Shown here piece after piece: positions 30,465-49,846 of a stretch of DNA of 64,000 nt. Below the pieces are notes generated by a model, which was not told where the DNA came from, searched no databases, and saw only the letters and a program-made list of their open reading frames with translations. How positions within the stretch are numbered: position 1 is the stretch's first letter; the number at the start of each line of letters is the position of its first letter. Position numbers and translations under genes: made by a program. This stretch comes from an uncultured Flavobacteriales bacterium (GTDB lineage Bacteria > Bacteroidota > Bacteroidia > Flavobacteriales_D > Crocinitomicaceae). The stretch is taken from positions 62,001 to 126,000 of the forward strand of contig CAJXJK010000016.1 in the NCBI GenBank assembly GCA_913054135.1. Direction: 5' to 3'.

Positions 30465-31280
30465 ATGAGACTTATAAACATTTCTAAGTTTGCTACTGGC
30501 TTAGTGTTTTTGATGGGTTTTTCAACAAACATTTACGCAAACCTTTCTATTGAAGGGCATTATCAAGGAAAGAACTTATTCGTTCAATCACCTGAAAGTG
30601 ATGACGGATTTGGGTTTTGTATAAACAGAGTTACTGTAAACGGAACGCCTTCTTCTCATACTGTTCAAGCTAGTGCTTTTCAAATAGATATGAGCGAATT
30701 TGATGTTCAAATCGGAGATAAAGTTTTAATCGTATTTGAGCACGAAGACGGGTGTAAACCTAAATTGCTTAACCCCGAAGTATTGCTTCCTAAAAGTACA
30801 TTCGTATTAGAAGACATCTCTTGCACTGCTGACGGCACATTGTCTTGGCAAACAATTGAAGAATCTGGAGCATTAACTTATCAAATTGAGCAATATAAGT
30901 GGAACAAGTGGGTGACTGTTGGTGAGACTAACGGAATCGGAAACGCGAAACCAAATGATTATTTATTCAACCTAACTCCTCATTCAGGTGAAAACAGAGT
31001 AAGAGTTACGCAAACTGATAACTCAGGGAAAAAGAGAGCTTCAAATGAAGTTTCATTTGATTGTACTACGGTACCTGAACCAGAAATGAAAACTAAAAGC
31101 GGAGATCAAATCGAATTTGTTGCAAATGGGAAAGCAGTGTCCACAAAGTATGAGATTTTTGATGCGTATGGTAACATTGTAAAAAAAGGTGTGAATTCTG
31201 TAGTGAATTGTAGCAACCTTAAAAAGGGAATTTATCATGTAAATTTTGACAATAAACATAGTAAGTTTATCAAGTCATAA
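30465..31280 (+). CDS. Exported protein with probable T9SS type A C-terminal domain
   Basis: The 271-residue protein has a signal peptide (about 25 residues, ending NIYA) and two extracellular beta-rich domains with paired cysteines. The last 80 residues read KYEIFDAYGNIVKKGVNSVVN and NLKKGIYHVNFDNKHSKFIKS, the pattern of a type A T9SS sorting domain (strand, turn, GxYxVxF, terminal Lys). It is likely secreted to the cell surface by T9SS. No catalytic motif is visible. The gene is alone with a strong promoter and a terminator, so expression may be high. Confidence 0.7.
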   Translation: MRLINISKFATGLVFLMGFSTNIYANLSIEGHYQGKNLFVQSPESDDGFGFCINRVTVNGTPSSHTVQASAFQIDMSEFDVQIGDKVLIVFEHEDGCKPKLLNPEVLLPKSTFVLEDISCTADGTLSWQTIEESGALTYQIEQYKWNKWVTVGETNGIGNAKPNDYLFNLTPHSGENRVRVTQTDNSGKKRASNEVSFDCTTVPEPEMKTKSGDQIEFVANGKAVSTKYEIFDAYGNIVKKGVNSVVNCSNLKKGIYHVNFDNKHSKFIKS

Positions 31281-31444: not shown

Positions 31445-34400
31445 ATGAAATTATTTGCTACTACCCTGATACTTTGTGCAATTGTATCAGGTCCAGCCTA
31501 TTCGCAAGGGAATGTTTCTACCTCAGAAAAACAGACTTTTGTTGAAGGCAAAAACTACATTGAAGGAGATATGCTAATCCAAATGGCAGAAAACGCCAGC
31601 ATCAAAGGGTTGATTGCAAAAGCTCCAAAAGATTACGAAGTTAAAGTTAACCGCCTATTATCTCGCCCAATGAGAGCTTGGTTAATCAACTTTAACCATG
31701 AGAATGTTGCTAACCACAACTTCTTAAATTGGTTATATGAACAAGACGAAGTTACGCTTGCTCAAAACAACCACAAAATTCAAATGAGATCTACTCTTCC
31801 AACTGATGGAGCAGCTTTCGGAGATCAATGGCATCACAACAACACGGGTCAAAGTGGTGGAACCGTAGATGCTGATATTGATTCTGATTTAGCTTGGGAT
31901 ATTACAACAGGTGGTCAAACAGCAAACAATGATGATATTGTTGTTTGCTTAATTGAGTCAGGAAACTTAGATCACAATGACATTGTTGACAATAAATGGA
32001 TAAACGTAGCCGAAGATACAGGTACACCTGGTGTAGATGATGACGGAAACGGATACATTGATGACATCTCTGGATGGAACCCTGTTGCCGGTAATGGTAA
32101 TTACGGAACTGGTAATCACGGAACAAACTGTTTAGGAATGATCGGAGCCAAAGGAAATAACGGATACCTTGTGGCTGGTGCCAATTGGGACGTTAAACTA
32201 ATGGTAGTTGGTGGATACAATATTTCTACTGACGCAAATGCAGTTGAAGCTTATACTTACCCATTAGAGATGAGACAGTTGTGGAACAACTCAGGAGGAA
32301 CCGAAGGTGCTTTCGTAGTCGCGACATCTTCTTCTTGGGGTATTGATGGCGAAAGCCCATCAGGCCATGCCTTGTGGTGTAACATGTATGACACGTTAGG
32401 TTACCACGGTATTTTGAATGTGGGAGCTACAACTAATCAAAATTTAAATGTTGATGTTGTTGGTGATATGCCAACAGCATGTGCATCTGATTATATGATT
32501 GGTGTTGGAAGAACAGATCATAATGACGCTACTGCTGGTGGATACGGACAAGTAGAAATTGAGCTTGGTGCCCCTGGTATTAATGTTATAACAACAGCTA
32601 ACACGAATACTACTACATCTACAACCGGAACTTCTTTTGCTTGTCCCTTGACTGCTGGAGTTATCGGATTAGCATATTCTATTCCTTGTACTGACTTTAT
32701 GGCTGTCGTTAATAGCGACCCGAAAGCAGGTGCCGATATGGTACTTCAAGCACTTCTTGATGGGGTGGATGTTATACCAGCCTTTGCCACAAAATTTAAT
32801 ACAAGCGGAAGACTAAATTCATTTAATACTTTGAATGAGCTTATGGCCGTCGGTTGTTCTGGTACAATTTGTATCGGACCAAACGGAATCAGTTCATCTA
32901 ACATTGGAGATAATACTGCAGACATCAATTTCACAGCTAACGGTTCGGCTTCTTCTACTTATATGTCATGGAGAGAAGTTGGTACTTCAACTTGGATTAT
33001 AGAATCACCAGCTACATCTCCTGTTAACTTAACAGGATTAACAGAGTGCACTGAATATGAGTATTATTTCAATTCAATTTGTGGAGGAACCGATACAAGT
33101 TCAAACACCACAGTTCAAACTTTCACAACAACAGGATGTCCTCAATGTATTGAAGGCGGATATTGTGATAACTCGGCAACTGACGCAATTGACGAATGGA
33201 TTGAAGAATTCACAATCGGAACTTACACAAACAACTCTGGAAACGATAACGGATATGGCAACTTTACTGCAACTTCAAATATCTCTTTAGATAAAGGTGT
33301 TGCTTACAACATTACTACTGTTCCAGACTGGAGCGGAACTTTATACAACGAACAAACTAAAATTTGGATTGACTTAGATCAAAACGGAGTTTTTGATGAC
33401 CCAGCTGATCTAGTTTATGACCAAGGAACTGCGACACAAACAAATGCAACAGGAACCGTAACTGTTCCATTAACTGCATTAGATGGTTCAACGAGAATGA
33501 GAGTTCAGATGGCGTATATTGGAACCGGTCAAACTACTTTCCCAGGAATTTGTAATGATTATACATGGGGAGAAACTGAAGATTACTGTGTAGAGATTCA
33601 GGAATCTAATCCTTGTAACCTAACAATCAATGAAACTGTGGTTGATGCAACATGTAATAACGGAACAGATGGTTCAATTGATTTAGGAACAGTAACTGGC
33701 GGAACCGCTCCTTATACTTATTTATGGACACCAAATGGCGAAACTACCACATCTGTAACCGGTGGCGCAGGATCTTATTCAGTTGATATTACTGATGACT
33801 TAGGTTGTACTTCAACTTTCGGATTCTCAATTGGTGCACCAGCTGCAATTACGGCAACAATGAATGTAACTGATGTAAGCTGTAATGGTGATACTGATGG
33901 AGCAATCAATATGACGCCTTCAGGTGGAACAGCTCCATACACATTCGATTGGGGTGGATTAGGAACTACTGAAGATCTTACAGGATTAGCTCCGAACAAC
34001 TACACTTGTGTGATCACTGATGATAATGGATGTTCTGATAACGTGAATGCAACTGTAGGTGAGCCTGCCGTGCTAAGTGGTTCTGCAACTTCAACGCCAA
34101 TTCTTACAGGATCTGACGGAACAATTGATTTAACAGTAACTGGTGGTACTCCTCCTTACTCTTATGATTGGGATAGCGGATTTAGTTCTAACGAAGATCT
34201 AAATGGACTTTCAGCAGCAGGGTCATACACTTGTGATATCACAGATGCTAACGGATGTACAACTCAGGTAACGGTAACTCTTGATTCTAACGTAGGAATT
34301 GAAAGTTCAATATTATCTCAGCTCAATATTTATCCAAATCCATCACACGGAACGGTAAACATTGCTTTCAAAACTGACATTGATGCTAAGATTACTGTTT

Positions 34401-34555
34401 ATAGCTCAATTGGACAAGTACTTCTTCAAGCTGATAATTTAGGAGAAAACATTATGACATTAGATTTAAATTCTTTTGCAACTGGTGTTTATATTATCCA
34501 AATCAACACGGCTGATGGAGCTCAAAGAAATGAAAGAATAACAATTAAGAAATAA
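31445..34555 (+). CDS. Subtilase (S8) with GEVED, three SprB repeats and T9SS type A sorting domain
   Basis: The 1036-residue secreted protein has a signal peptide, a prodomain-like part (about 30-110), a peptidase S8 domain (about 115-470), a fibronectin III-like domain (about 478-565), a GEVED domain (about 605-720, WIDLDQNGVFDDPADLVYDQG), three SprB repeats (about 722-955, each ...GGTAPYTYLW... with ITDDLGC-type ends) and a type A sorting domain (LNIYPNPSHGTVNI to the terminal KK). In the active site His225 (GNHGTNCLG) and Ser397 (GTSFACP) are present, but the Asp position holds Glu171 (CLIESGNLDHNDI). Activity is therefore uncertain. SprB repeats point to surface adhesion. It stands alone with its own terminator. 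Confidence 0.88.
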   Translation: MKLFATTLILCAIVSGPAYSQGNVSTSEKQTFVEGKNYIEGDMLIQMAENASIKGLIAKAPKDYEVKVNRLLSRPMRAWLINFNHENVANHNFLNWLYEQDEVTLAQNNHKIQMRSTLPTDGAAFGDQWHHNNTGQSGGTVDADIDSDLAWDITTGGQTANNDDIVVCLIESGNLDHNDIVDNKWINVAEDTGTPGVDDDGNGYIDDISGWNPVAGNGNYGTGNHGTNCLGMIGAKGNNGYLVAGANWDVKLMVVGGYNISTDANAVEAYTYPLEMRQLWNNSGGTEGAFVVATSSSWGIDGESPSGHALWCNMYDTLGYHGILNVGATTNQNLNVDVVGDMPTACASDYMIGVGRTDHNDATAGGYGQVEIELGAPGINVITTANTNTTTSTTGTSFACPLTAGVIGLAYSIPCTDFMAVVNSDPKAGADMVLQALLDGVDVIPAFATKFNTSGRLNSFNTLNELMAVGCSGTICIGPNGISSSNIGDNTADINFTANGSASSTYMSWREVGTSTWIIESPATSPVNLTGLTECTEYEYYFNSICGGTDTSSNTTVQTFTTTGCPQCIEGGYCDNSATDAIDEWIEEFTIGTYTNNSGNDNGYGNFTATSNISLDKGVAYNITTVPDWSGTLYNEQTKIWIDLDQNGVFDDPADLVYDQGTATQTNATGTVTVPLTALDGSTRMRVQMAYIGTGQTTFPGICNDYTWGETEDYCVEIQESNPCNLTINETVVDATCNNGTDGSIDLGTVTGGTAPYTYLWTPNGETTTSVTGGAGSYSVDITDDLGCTSTFGFSIGAPAAITATMNVTDVSCNGDTDGAINMTPSGGTAPYTFDWGGLGTTEDLTGLAPNNYTCVITDDNGCSDNVNATVGEPAVLSGSATSTPILTGSDGTIDLTVTGGTPPYSYDWDSGFSSNEDLNGLSAAGSYTCDITDANGCTTQVTVTLDSNVGIESSILSQLNIYPNPSHGTVNIAFKTDIDAKITVYSSIGQVLLQADNLGENIMTLDLNSFATGVYIIQINTADGAQRNERITIKK

Positions 34556-34573
34556 CTAAGATTCTAAGTAATC

Positions 34574-34607
34574 AAAACCTCCTTGCAGTTTGCAAGGAGG
34601 TTTTTTT
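34574..34607 (+). terminator. Rho-independent terminator of the subtilase gene
   Basis: AAAACCTCCTTGCA (34574-34587) pairs perfectly with TGCAAGGAGGTTTT (34591-34604) around GTT and is followed by T to 34607. It is back to back with a minus-strand terminator at 34611. Confidence 0.92.
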
Positions 34608-34610
34608 ATG

Positions 34611-34642
34611 CAAAAAAAGAGCCCAGCATCACAGCTAGACTC
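34611..34642 (-). terminator. Orphan minus-strand terminator
   Basis: On the minus strand GAGTCTAGC (34642-34634) pairs with GCTGGGCTC (34627-34619) over nine base pairs, two of them G-U, and seven T follow (34618-34612). The G-U pairs would be A-C mismatches in the plus-strand RNA, so the hairpin works only for a minus-strand transcript. No minus-strand protein gene lies upstream of it. Confidence 0.7.
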
Positions 34643-34790
34643 AAGAACAATATCTACGTAATAACAAACTTACCTTTACTTTATATTTCCCGGTAGATAA
34701 GACAGCTGCTCGTTGGAACTAACGATAAATGGTATTTTAATGGATACTTCAAACGTATCAGCTGCTTGTTCTATCCCTTTATGTTCAAGA
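34611..34790 (-). ncRNA. Candidate structured small RNA of about 180 bases
   Basis: Upstream of the orphan terminator the minus strand folds into nested helices. The closing helix is AGAACAA (34772-34766) with TTGTTCT (34650-34644). Inside are TATCTAC (34699-34693) with GTAGATA (34657-34651), and CAGCTG (34764-34759) with CAGCTG (34708-34703). The latter encloses two hairpins, GATAC/GTATC (34743-34759) and TCGTT/AACGA (34710-34725). The first three form a three-way junction. A weak -7-like box TACCTTTT lies near 34803-34796, so the 5' end near 34790 is only an estimate. Size resembles 6S RNA, but I cannot confirm that identity. Confidence 0.5.
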
Positions 34791-34820
34791 AATTAAAAGG
34801 TAACCTTTAAATAAAAATTA

Positions 34821-34828
34821 TATTTTTG
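34821..34828 (+). promoter_or_regulatory. -7 box (TATTTTTG) for the DUF2911 gene
   Basis: TATTTTTG fits TAnnTTTG and ends 15 bases before the ATG at 34844. The upstream TTG at 34826 that opens the frame is part of this box. Confidence 0.45.
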
Positions 34829-34843
34829 TGTAAAATTACTGGT

Positions 34844-35680
34844 ATGAAAAATTCACTTATCCTATTGACACTAAGCCTTTTATTTTCTTCGGTAGCTATC
34901 TCTCAAAAATTACCTGCAAGAAGTCCTAAGTCTAATCTAAAACAAAAAGTAGGTCTTTGTGATATCACAATTGAGTATTCAAGACCAAGTGCAAGAAACA
35001 GAGCCATCTTCGGAAACCTTGTTCCGTATAAAGAGGTTTGGAGACTAGGAGCTAACGAATGCACTAAAATTAGCATTACCCAACCCTTGATTTTTGGAAG
35101 ATCAGTTTTAGATACTGGTACTTATGCCATATTTGCTATTCCTCAAGAAGATGGAAAATGGGACATCATTTTTAATACTGACCACAAACAGTGGGGCTCT
35201 ATGAGCTATGATTCAGAGAAAGACGCCGTTAGAGTTATTGGCGGCGCATCAAAGAATGAACATACAGAATCGTTTGAAATCTCAATTAATAGAATCTCGA
35301 ATTATGGCGCAACAATTTTAATTAGATGGGAAGGCCTAAAAGTAGAAGTTCCATTCACTGTTGAAACTGATGCACATGTTCAAAAAGAAATTGAATCAGC
35401 AATAGCTGAAGGAAAAGAATTAGAGCAAGTTCATTATAGAGCTGCTGACTATTATCTTCAAATGAAGAAAGACACAAAGCAAGCAATGATGCACATTGAT
35501 AAATCAATTGAAATTCAAGAAGGCTACTTTAATTTATTTCTAAAAGCTCAAATTTTACATGAAGATGGAGACAATAAAGCCGCTCTAAAATTGGGTAAAA
35601 AAGCCAAGAAACTTGCCAAGAAAGACAAAAAACCAGGTTGGGTTGATTACATGGATCGCAACATGGAAGAGTGGAAATAA
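34844..35680 (+). CDS. DUF2911-domain exported protein with helical C-terminus
   Basis: The 278-residue protein has a signal peptide (ending SVAISQ) and the DUF2911 domain, recognisable by ARSPKSNLKQKVGLCDITIEYSRPSARNRAIFGNLVPYKEVWRLGANE-type sequence near residues 24-70 and GTYAIFAIPQEDGKWDIIF. The C-terminal 80 residues form TPR-like helices and a basic end. DUF2911 proteins are periplasmic or surface proteins of unknown function widespread in Bacteroidota. I chose ATG 34844 over the TTG at 34826. The gene is separate from the following pair by 91 bases. Confidence 0.87.
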   Translation: MKNSLILLTLSLLFSSVAISQKLPARSPKSNLKQKVGLCDITIEYSRPSARNRAIFGNLVPYKEVWRLGANECTKISITQPLIFGRSVLDTGTYAIFAIPQEDGKWDIIFNTDHKQWGSMSYDSEKDAVRVIGGASKNEHTESFEISINRISNYGATILIRWEGLKVEVPFTVETDAHVQKEIESAIAEGKELEQVHYRAADYYLQMKKDTKQAMMHIDKSIEIQEGYFNLFLKAQILHEDGDNKAALKLGKKAKKLAKKDKKPGWVDYMDRNMEEWK

Positions 35681-35771
35681 AATAAACACATTCACAACTT
35701 ATTAGGGATAACTATCAGCTGAAACTACTTTCGGCATGAAGTTTTCATTTACCTTTCTAAAAAAAGGAAAA

Positions 35772-36206
35772 ATGAAATTCTTAAGCGCAATCTTTATTTG
35801 TCTTCTCAGCTTTAGCACTCTTGCTCAAAAAGAAGAAGCCAAGTTTCAACAATTCAACAACTTTACGGCTCAATTTGAAGTCCCTGAAGGTAAAACATGG
35901 GTCATTCAACAAATCTTTTCAAGTTTTGCTGCTGATGTGACTACAAATACAGATGGTACATCTGAGTTTACCCCTGTGAGAATCTTCATAAAAACATTGA
36001 ATGGAGATATCAAAACAGATTGGGAAGGGAACCGCTTTGGGCCGCAAGTGTTTCAATCTAATAATACCTCTGCTGTAATTTCATACCCTATCACCCTTCC
36101 TGAAAAAACAAAATTCAGTTTGGTTGTTGTAAAAGGAAATCCTGGCGCATTCAAATCTTTTGACGGCTCAGCATATATCTCATATAAAGAATTAACAAAT
36201 CAGTAA
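35772..36206 (+). CDS. Exported protein of unknown function (paralogue of its neighbour)
   Basis: From the ATG at 35772, preceded by the purine-rich AAAAAGGAAAA, the product is 144 residues with signal peptide MKFLSAIFICLLSFSTLAQ. The frame also holds an ATG 12 codons earlier. The mature part is a single beta-rich domain with the landmarks EVPEGKTWVIQQIFS, FIKTLNGDIKTDWEGNRFGPQVFQS and ISYPITLPEKTKFSLVVVKG. The same landmarks occur in the C-terminal part of the next gene product, three bases downstream. I do not recognise the domain. Confidence 0.7.
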   Translation: MKFLSAIFICLLSFSTLAQKEEAKFQQFNNFTAQFEVPEGKTWVIQQIFSSFAADVTTNTDGTSEFTPVRIFIKTLNGDIKTDWEGNRFGPQVFQSNNTSAVISYPITLPEKTKFSLVVVKGNPGAFKSFDGSAYISYKELTNQ

Positions 36207-48280: not shown

Positions 48281-49771
48281 TTATCCGTTTCTGGCCTTCA
48301 CAATTCTACCTCTACTTAAGGTAAAATATGACCTTCCAATTTTGAACTTTATTCCTTCTTTTATGGATTTCATATCCATGTCATCCTCAATGGTATGGAC
48401 AGTTCCTCCAGTGTCATAGGCCAATTGAATATAATCAATGTTGATTCCGGCCTGTGCCCCACATAGAATAACATGCACAGGTTTTCTCACTTTATCAGTG
48501 ATTGACAAATCACGAGGAGTAGCATAATTATCTGCAACCATTACGATCTCATCAAAGGCAGGGTATTTATTTATCGTCTTGATTGTCGCCTCAACATTGT
48601 TTTCAGGACAATCTCCTCCATAACCTGCCCTCATTGTATATTTCATTTGACCGTAAACCTCAGCAAACTTTGAATTGTCGACCATGTAAACTCCACCGGT
48701 GCTGCCCGTTCTTTTAAGCTTGTTTGACTTTCTGTCTCCATCATTGAAAAATGTAAACGCTTTCACCAATTCTGATGATTGTGTCTCTCTTGTCCAAGCC
48801 ATAGTTTTGGCTATATATGGTGACATACTTCCAGTCACATCCATTACAACCAAAGTGTTTTTCCACTCAGGATTTCTCTCAAAAACCGCTTCGACCACAC
48901 CATATTCTCCTCCCGACATCCATGGTGGTAATCTAAGTTCTTTCTCTAAATCACTACCCGCAACTACAGCAATTTCAGTTTTAGGTGCAGGACAACTATC
49001 TTGTTGTACTTGCCAACTCACAGCTCTCTTTTCTCTTATGAAAAGGCCATGAAACGAAGTTGAAATATTCTCTACCTCATCTGACTTTTTCAAACTATCA
49101 ACATATGCCTTTCTTGCTTTTCTATCCTTGTCAAAATACTTCGTGTAGTACGCTCTGCACTTTCCGCCTTCTTCTGTTACACTCTTGTGAAGGACTCCAG
49201 GTGTCATGTCGTCCATTACGATCTCAATTCTTGTTGGAGTTAAGCCTGTTTTGCCCACTCCAACTTTTTTAACAATAGTGTCTGTTTTTGGCTCCTTTAA
49301 AAAGTCTTCGAAAATATCATCTAAAAATGCTATCTCTTTTTCAACTGAAGCCTCTGTAGGAGTTGGACGATAATACACTCTAAAACCATGAAAAAGTTCT
49401 TTGGCTGATTCTTTGGTGTCGTCTGAACTCTGCGCATACAACTGCCAGTCAATAGTCTCTTTTTGGGCAGATGGCCACTCACTAAACAACTTATTCATTC
49501 GGTCATCATTTAATCCATTTTGATCAAAATCTTCACGTGATTTATATGTAGAATAGGCCAAGTCAATTCTAACTATTGCCAAATCCTTCAATGAGTCAGG
49601 TATAGATGAATACAAATCATCTTCATTAAACCCCACCGGAACTTCAAAAGAAGATAATCCCAGAAGTGTTTCATCTATTTCATAGTTAGTCACAGTATCA
49701 TGAACACTAATATTAATTTGTCCAAAACTGATTTGAACACTTATTACATACATCAAACAAAACAATCTCAT
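48281..49771 (-). CDS. Exported VWA-domain protein
   Basis: The 496-residue protein begins at ATG 49771 with signal peptide MRLFCLMYVISVQISFGQ; the open frame extends 30 codons upstream into the divergent gene and lacks a signal there. The N-terminal 290 residues are of unknown fold. A VWA domain follows with MIDAS DVTGSM (Asp311) and a later YGGDCPENNVEATIKTI segment. No sorting domain is seen at the C-terminus. Its gene lies between two signalling units, so it may be an effector or sensor part, which is inference. Confidence 0.72.
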   Translation of the reverse strand: MRLFCLMYVISVQISFGQINISVHDTVTNYEIDETLLGLSSFEVPVGFNEDDLYSSIPDSLKDLAIVRIDLAYSTYKSREDFDQNGLNDDRMNKLFSEWPSAQKETIDWQLYAQSSDDTKESAKELFHGFRVYYRPTPTEASVEKEIAFLDDIFEDFLKEPKTDTIVKKVGVGKTGLTPTRIEIVMDDMTPGVLHKSVTEEGGKCRAYYTKYFDKDRKARKAYVDSLKKSDEVENISTSFHGLFIREKRAVSWQVQQDSCPAPKTEIAVVAGSDLEKELRLPPWMSGGEYGVVEAVFERNPEWKNTLVVMDVTGSMSPYIAKTMAWTRETQSSELVKAFTFFNDGDRKSNKLKRTGSTGGVYMVDNSKFAEVYGQMKYTMRAGYGGDCPENNVEATIKTINKYPAFDEIVMVADNYATPRDLSITDKVRKPVHVILCGAQAGINIDYIQLAYDTGGTVHTIEDDMDMKSIKEGIKFKIGRSYFTLSRGRIVKARNG

Positions 49772-49846
49772 AATCCATATTTTGTTCTTTATGTCGAATG
49801 ATTTAAAAAGGTAACCATCTGTAAATAAAAACAAGGATTTTGTATC

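Follow-up and report, generated by a model that had tools for sequence, protein, structure and literature searches.

A probable ECF-dependent antisense small RNA facing the leader of the porP-gldKLMN operon in Crocinitomicaceae

The window analysed here is a stretch of 64,000 nucleotides from the genome of an uncultured Flavobacteriales bacterium of the family Crocinitomicaceae (home genome, G000). Between a subtilase gene and a DUF2911 gene, both on the plus strand, lies an interval for which a preliminary description had proposed an unannotated small RNA on the minus strand, on account of a terminator without a gene and of helices nested into a three-way junction. A check of the minus-strand sequence found the helices and the terminator exactly where they had been placed, and no minus-strand gene of note ends upstream of them. 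The subtilase gene has its own strong terminator at about 34575-34609, and the terminator of the RNA is the best minus-strand terminator-like site in the interval 33500-36000 (3 sites were found vs 1.5 expected from shuffles). The features of the locus and of a second locus with the same promoter are collected in Table 1; the 5' end of the RNA was set from the promoter and its 3' end from the terminator.

Table 1. Features of the small RNA locus and of the presumed co-regulated locus in the window
Feature	Position	Strand	Remarks
T9SS-tail protein gene	30465-31280	+	tail SIEGHYQGKNLFVQSP
Subtilase gene	31445-34555	+	
Small RNA	34612..34775	-	about 160-165 nt; promoter, seed and terminator conserved in the genus
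Intrinsic terminator of the RNA	34612..34642	-	stem GAGTCTAGC 34642-34634 / GCTGGGCTC 34627-34619; 9 pairs, 2 of them G-U, then 7 T
Outer helix AGAACAA/TTGTTCT	34772-34766 / 34650-34644	-	
Helix TATCTAC/GTAGATA	34699-34693 / 34657-34651	-	
Helix CAGCTG/CAGCTG	34764-34759 / 34708-34703	-	
Hairpin TATCTAC/GTAGATA enclosing the second motif	34651..34699	-	motif-bearing hairpin at that position in relatives
Second motif GGTAAGTTTGTTATT	34660..34674	-	invariant in 3 of 4 genus genomes, changed in G003
3' arm of seed-loop stem, CAGCTGT	34702..34708	-	
3' extension of pairing, GTTCCAACGAGC	34708..34719	-	faces GCTTGTTGGA of the target leader (duplex prediction)
Seed AATACCATTTATCGTTAG	34719..34736	-	exposed 18-nt loop, complementary to porP-A leader -33 to -16
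5' arm of seed-loop stem, GCAGCTG	34759..34765	-	7-bp stem; 24 of 1000 shuffles as good
ECF-sigma-type promoter of the RNA, GGTTACC-N14-ACATAAAG	34777..34805	-	exact match
DUF2911 gene	34826-35680	+	
Small secreted-protein gene	35736-36206		
Presumed co-regulated gene	48281..49771	-	495 aa from ATG; reads like a VWA-domain envelope or secreted protein
Second exact copy of the ECF-type promoter	49787..49816	-	15 nt upstream of the ATG of the presumed co-regulated gene

The minus strand of the locus folds at -45.8 kcal/mol (z -1.95; 8 of 200 dinucleotide shuffles were as good) and the plus strand at -33.8 (z -1.21, likewise against dinucleotide shuffles). As the z-score of the minus strand is only about -2, the fold alone says little about the reality of the RNA; judged from the sequences of relatives, it is conservation that lifts the locus far above chance. 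The comparison with Rfam suggested in the preliminary description gave no match to a known class: at the gathering score there were 0 matches in the window and none to the RNA itself in 10 homologous loci, while relaxed searches around the locus (E up to 10) returned sub-threshold matches only. The tRNA/tmRNA scan was negative, and phage and plasmid records gave no match. A small ORF inside the RNA was also considered and rejected, for the four genomes of the genus share neither a start codon nor a conserved sense-strand frame there.

The RNA is present in 4 of 4 genomes of the genus (g1, Crocinitomicaceae), each time with the same promoter, a terminator and the seed, one base of which is changed in G003. 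Two of the other species were found by similarity (75 and 73% identity over the 5' part), and the RNA of the fourth genome (L047) by the promoter pattern. In G001, G002 and G003 it precedes a homologue of the small secreted-protein gene of the window, and in G002 and G003 it adjoins a T9SS-tail gene resembling the window's subtilase. Alignment of the first three genus genomes yields four blocks, namely GGTTACC...TGAACATAAAG, AATACCATTTATCGTNAG, GGTAAGTTTGTTATT and the terminator, connected by stems whose sequences differ among the three. The third block, referred to here as the second motif, sits in a hairpin loop; in G001 and G002 this block is enclosed by the terminator stem, and the three-way junction of the window is thus not general. 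Nothing in the predicted folds of G001 and G002 corresponds to AGAACAA/TTGTTCT, and TATCTAC/GTAGATA is matched only loosely, by a hairpin which in these two genomes is the terminator stem itself. Of the helices listed for the junction, CAGCTG/CAGCTG alone has counterparts, of unrelated sequence, in most relatives. The proposal of a minus-strand small RNA is therefore strongly backed by the conserved promoter, loop and terminator and by the syntenic homologues, whereas the junction did not survive comparison and the likeness to 6S or another housekeeping RNA, drawn from size, proved misleading: no Rfam family matches, and what has been conserved is an antisense seed, which points to a regulatory RNA.

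The promoter of the RNA is conserved in all homologues, and its site is the only match in the window to GGTTACC-N14-ACATAAAG with up to 2 mismatches, where 0.10 are expected. In the four genus genomes the pattern GGTTACC-N14/16-ACATAAAG occurs 10 times vs 0 for the reversed control; one of the ten (G002:C38) falls within a coding sequence and presumably arose by chance. The genes found 3' of the promoter in the genus are the RNA, an ECF sigma gene (L045/L050 in G000, L032/L046 in G002), the VWA-like gene and porP/sprF paralogues (L048, L049), so the same element, in the form GGTTACC-N14/15-ACATAAAG, is common to the RNA, the ECF sigma gene and its presumed regulon. According to NCBIfam, the sigma factors match TIGR02937 above the cut-off and the PorP/SprF proteins match TIGR03519; for the ECF factor only the sigma70-ECF superfamily model exceeds the cut-off, and the PG0214 family matches weakly below it (E 1.7e-4). 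In G000, G002, G094 and G095 the gene that follows the promoter encodes an ECF sigma factor, an arrangement that, by analogy with known ECF systems, suggests autoregulation. The second porP gene, porP-B, carries an ECF-type promoter in 8 of 8 genomes inspected, several of them with variant boxes. The product of the VWA-like gene gave no Pfam hit; from its promoter, the gene is probably another member of the same regulon. Judged from the shared promoter, the sigma factor that would transcribe the RNA is most likely of the ECF type. The locus has the features of an ECF-dependent trans-acting sRNA in that it is noncoding, short and furnished with its own intrinsic terminator. In G098 the ECF-type promoter pattern lies 244 nt before a PorE/OmpA-like T9SS gene (G098:C1:400202; L059 1501-1530); the pattern is not enriched in the genus of G098, and this occurrence could be due to chance.

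Outside the genus, exact counts of the promoter do not exceed those of the reversed control; single sites there are thus no evidence by themselves, and each locus was judged by its position, terminator and pairing. Four further genera have the RNA, recognised by a shared promoter and/or a shared position. RNAs of g11 (G013, G032, G089-G095) and g8 (G010) possess the same kind of promoter, the sequence TACCATTTAACG (TACCATTTTACG in G093) and a terminator, and several of them are located 3' of a homologue or paralogue of the T9SS-tail protein gene of the window. Relatives of this T9SS-tail protein occur in 221 of 240 genomes of the family. Most g11 RNAs, as well as that of G010, have an extra 5' domain with an invariant TGATATAAGCA and a CTCAAAGTGGGA hairpin. 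RNAalifold, applied to the eight g8/g11 RNAs in which TGATATAAGCA is invariant (L056, L072, L108, L109, L110, L176, L181, L186), supported the 5' hairpin domain, with two-sided changes in 5 of 10 pairs; the seed stem, whose arms do not align, was not recovered. In G025 (g23) and G022 (g20) the corresponding place is occupied by promoter-terminator units that lack the seed sequence. In G022 (C19; L097 757-1135) two noncoding units with ECF promoters and terminators stand in tandem, and only the second pairs with the porP-A leader. A two-part motif scan returned the G002 record and one chance match inside a coding gene (L036) among genome contigs, and nothing among viral contigs.

In 16 RNAs the seed is predicted to be more accessible than the average of the RNA and to lie in a loop whose closing stem has 5-11 bp. 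Since the arms of this stem do not align between species, it was tested sequence by sequence. In 11 of 16 RNAs the closing stem surpassed that of shuffles at the 5% level, not all of the g11 sequences being independent; G091 reached 5.2%, and the stem was not significant in G001, G010, G092 and G022. Its sequence differs between most species (GCAGCUG/CAGCUGU, UGAAAGGACA/UGUCUUUUCA, GUGAGAAU/AUUCUCAC, GGAAGAAUA/UAUUCUUCC, AGUAUUGACUG/CGGUCAAUACU, UGUGCGGAG/CUCUGCACA, UACCGAGG/CCUUGGUA and others), and the CAGCTG helix of the window is the local member of this variable series.

Targets were sought by searching the four genus genomes, of 4 Mb, for the seed complement CTNACGATAAATGGTATT with up to two mismatches. 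Besides the RNA gene itself, the only match with 0-1 mismatches was one porP leader per genome (porP-A), and matches with two mismatches were inconsistent between genomes. In G000 and G002, porP-A is the first gene of the type IX secretion (T9SS) core operon, porP-gldK-gldL-gldM-gldN, an order confirmed for G000 by NCBIfam models; in G002, where the pairing was first seen, the leader reads ..GGAGTATTCTGACGATAAATGGTATTGAAAAAAAC... The best ungapped helix between the RNA and this leader in the home genome has 18 bp, covers -33 to -16 relative to the presumed ATG, scores -27.7 kcal/mol and was reached by 0 of 300 dinucleotide-shuffled RNAs. For comparison, the leaders of 49 ORFs of the window gave -12.5 +/- 2.0 against the RNA, with a minimum of -20.0. 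According to duplex prediction, the pairing can be extended upstream in the leader through the 3' extension given in Table 1. The porP-A leader is also predicted, in several species, to form a small hairpin at about -45 to -29 from the ATG (L193-L207), of the form GUUGGA/UCUGAC, or UUGUUGG/CCGACGA in G025. One arm of this hairpin is part of the sRNA site.

The conserved, exposed seed is complementary to the target leader, and the two have changed in a compensatory manner. In G000-G002 the RNA sequence ACCATTTATCG accompanies the porP-A leader CGATAAATGGT, and in G089, G090, G092, G094 and G095 (g11) and G010 (g8) the RNA sequence ACCATTTAACG accompanies the leader CGTTAAATGGT; the T/A swaps between genera are matched in seed and target. 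Moreover, the RNAs of G025 and G022 were located by promoter and synteny, independently of the seed, and each forms a helix with the diverged leader of its own genome, of 17 bp in G025 (-31.5; 0 of 300 shuffles as good) and of 15 bp in G022 (-24.0; 1 of 300). Leaders from other genomes pair far worse, the best reaching -19.6 for the G025 RNA and -16.6 for the second G022 RNA. The pairing has most likely persisted across related genera even as RNA and leader diverged in sequence.

We thus consider it probable that the RNA is an ECF-driven, trans-acting antisense sRNA directed at the leader of porP-gldKLMN. Its GGTTACC promoter would be used by an ECF sigma factor of the envelope-stress type that regulates itself, and the exposed loop would pair with the porP-A leader between about -34 and -16, counted from the presumed start codon. 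The duplex would then most likely block ribosome access or destabilise the operon message; repression, through a block of initiation, is in our judgement more likely than not. MicA and RybB of Enterobacteriaceae offer a parallel: these short RNAs with a terminator at their end depend on the envelope-stress factor SigmaE and pair with the leaders of outer-membrane protein genes. However, the RNA described here bears no sequence relation to them, has a Bacteroidota ECF promoter and a T9SS operon as its presumed target, and presents its seed in a large loop, while theirs is at the 5' end.

It is possible, though we rather doubt it, that porP is one of several targets and that the RNA acts mainly on a different mRNA, with which it would pair through the second motif (GGTAAGTTTGTTATT in the genus; in other genera, GTGATATAAGCA and AAGTCTAACA). 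Such a role would agree with the invariance of this motif in three genus genomes and of the 5' block TGATATAAGCA in the eight g8/g11 RNAs, and also with the fact that the best sRNA pairing in G093, G032 and G094 is with porP-B; however, no consistent trans target was found for the motif at up to one mismatch. Somewhat less likely still is activation, in which the sRNA would open the leader hairpin (GUUGGA/UCUGAC type) or protect the 5' end, so that porP-gldKLMN would rise together with porP-B and the ECF factor would induce the whole T9SS. The pairing of the seed with one arm of the leader hairpin speaks for this, porP-B has the same type of promoter, and in P. gingivalis the ECF factor SigP is needed for full expression of por genes (PMC4800418). 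Nevertheless, the predicted leader fold does not clearly sequester the region of the start codon, which leaves little for activation to release. Moreover, the paired site is directly 5' of the presumed AUG, a position at which a duplex as a rule prevents initiation. The notion of a housekeeping or protein-binding RNA, 6S-like or other, with incidental complementarity to porP, we regard as very improbable. Its size, fairly stable fold and single seed-containing copy per genome would suit such an RNA; however, Rfam gives no match even at relaxed thresholds, the pairing persists although length (about 109 to 238 nt) and architecture vary between genomes, and the cognate pairing with different sequences in G025 and G022 speaks against it. 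We give as little credit to a reading of the conserved motif as a DNA element or as a piece of a small protein-coding gene, since, although conserved blocks do exist on the DNA, the four genus genomes share no start codon or reading frame on the sense strand, promoter, loop and terminator keep their order, and only pairing explains the complementary orientation to the target.

Returning to the antisense sRNA, the porP-A site is not kept equally everywhere. The helix between seed and porP-A leader is weak in three genomes, with 11 bp (ungapped) in G003, 12 bp in G013 and 9 bp (ungapped) in G093, and in G032 the site is lost from the porP-A leader, the sRNA pairing with porP-B instead over 15 bp. 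The RNAs of G032, G094 and G093 pair with the porP-B leader over 14-15 bp, which 0-1 of 300 shuffles equalled, suggesting that the second porP gene is an additional or alternative target in g11. The consistent promoter of porP-B points to a controlled replacement of one PorP by another: if a single sigma factor drives both porP-B and the sRNA, activation of this factor would raise PorP-B directly and lower PorP-A and/or the gldKLMN operon through the sRNA. The fit of the g11 sRNA to porP-B is at odds with a simple swap of this kind. Tentatively, and with somewhat more doubt than confidence, one may picture fast-evolving ECF-driven antisense RNAs that rewire the T9SS core operon: the sigma factor would make its own PorP, the sRNA would exclude the PorP encoded with gldKLMN, the surface partner would be switched under envelope stress, and in the sister genus the RNA would have been retargeted to the second porP.

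The combination of an ECF factor, the T9SS and an RNA has precedents. The ECF factor SigP of P. gingivalis, part of the PorX/PorY-SigP system, binds the porP promoter and controls por genes, including porP of porPKLMN; it acts, however, on transcription, the motif suggested for it, C(T)AAA(G/C/T)A(T)A(C)T(A/G)A, differs from GGTTACC/ACATAAAG, and the passages describing this system do not mention an sRNA (PMC4800418). In F. psychrophilum, the SM6 ECF-type promoters precede T9SS genes, genes for an ECF sigma factor and its anti-sigma factor, and Rfp11, a putative regulatory RNA, but they have a CGT -10 box, and the passages on Rfp11, which is set beside our RNA by description only, give no targets for it (PMC9723704). 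Rfp18 of Flavobacterium is likewise a conserved flavobacterial sRNA with predicted mRNA pairing; its targets are metalloproteases and an adhesin, however, and the account of it reports no ECF promoter (PMC9723704). In the literature searched we found no defined sRNA-target pair on the T9SS core operon. The RNA is most likely, from its sequence features, a real regulatory RNA of a known kind, an ECF-dependent antisense sRNA, which would form a new family and have an important target.

Type IX secretion is one of the chief export routes of Bacteroidota, used for adhesins, proteases and gliding proteins, and its known regulation is mostly transcriptional; few sRNA targets are, to our knowledge, known in this phylum. 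P. gingivalis is a case of such transcriptional control (PMC4800418). If our reading is correct, a conserved sRNA would add post-transcriptional control of the T9SS core operon, tied to an ECF stress response, and would point to a regulated exchange of porP paralogues. The rapid co-evolution of seed and target would also offer a clean natural experiment for the evolution of sRNA-target pairs. As to the core operon of the home genome itself, a second gldM-like gene is located directly after gldN (G000:C1, L190 2-1258, minus strand).
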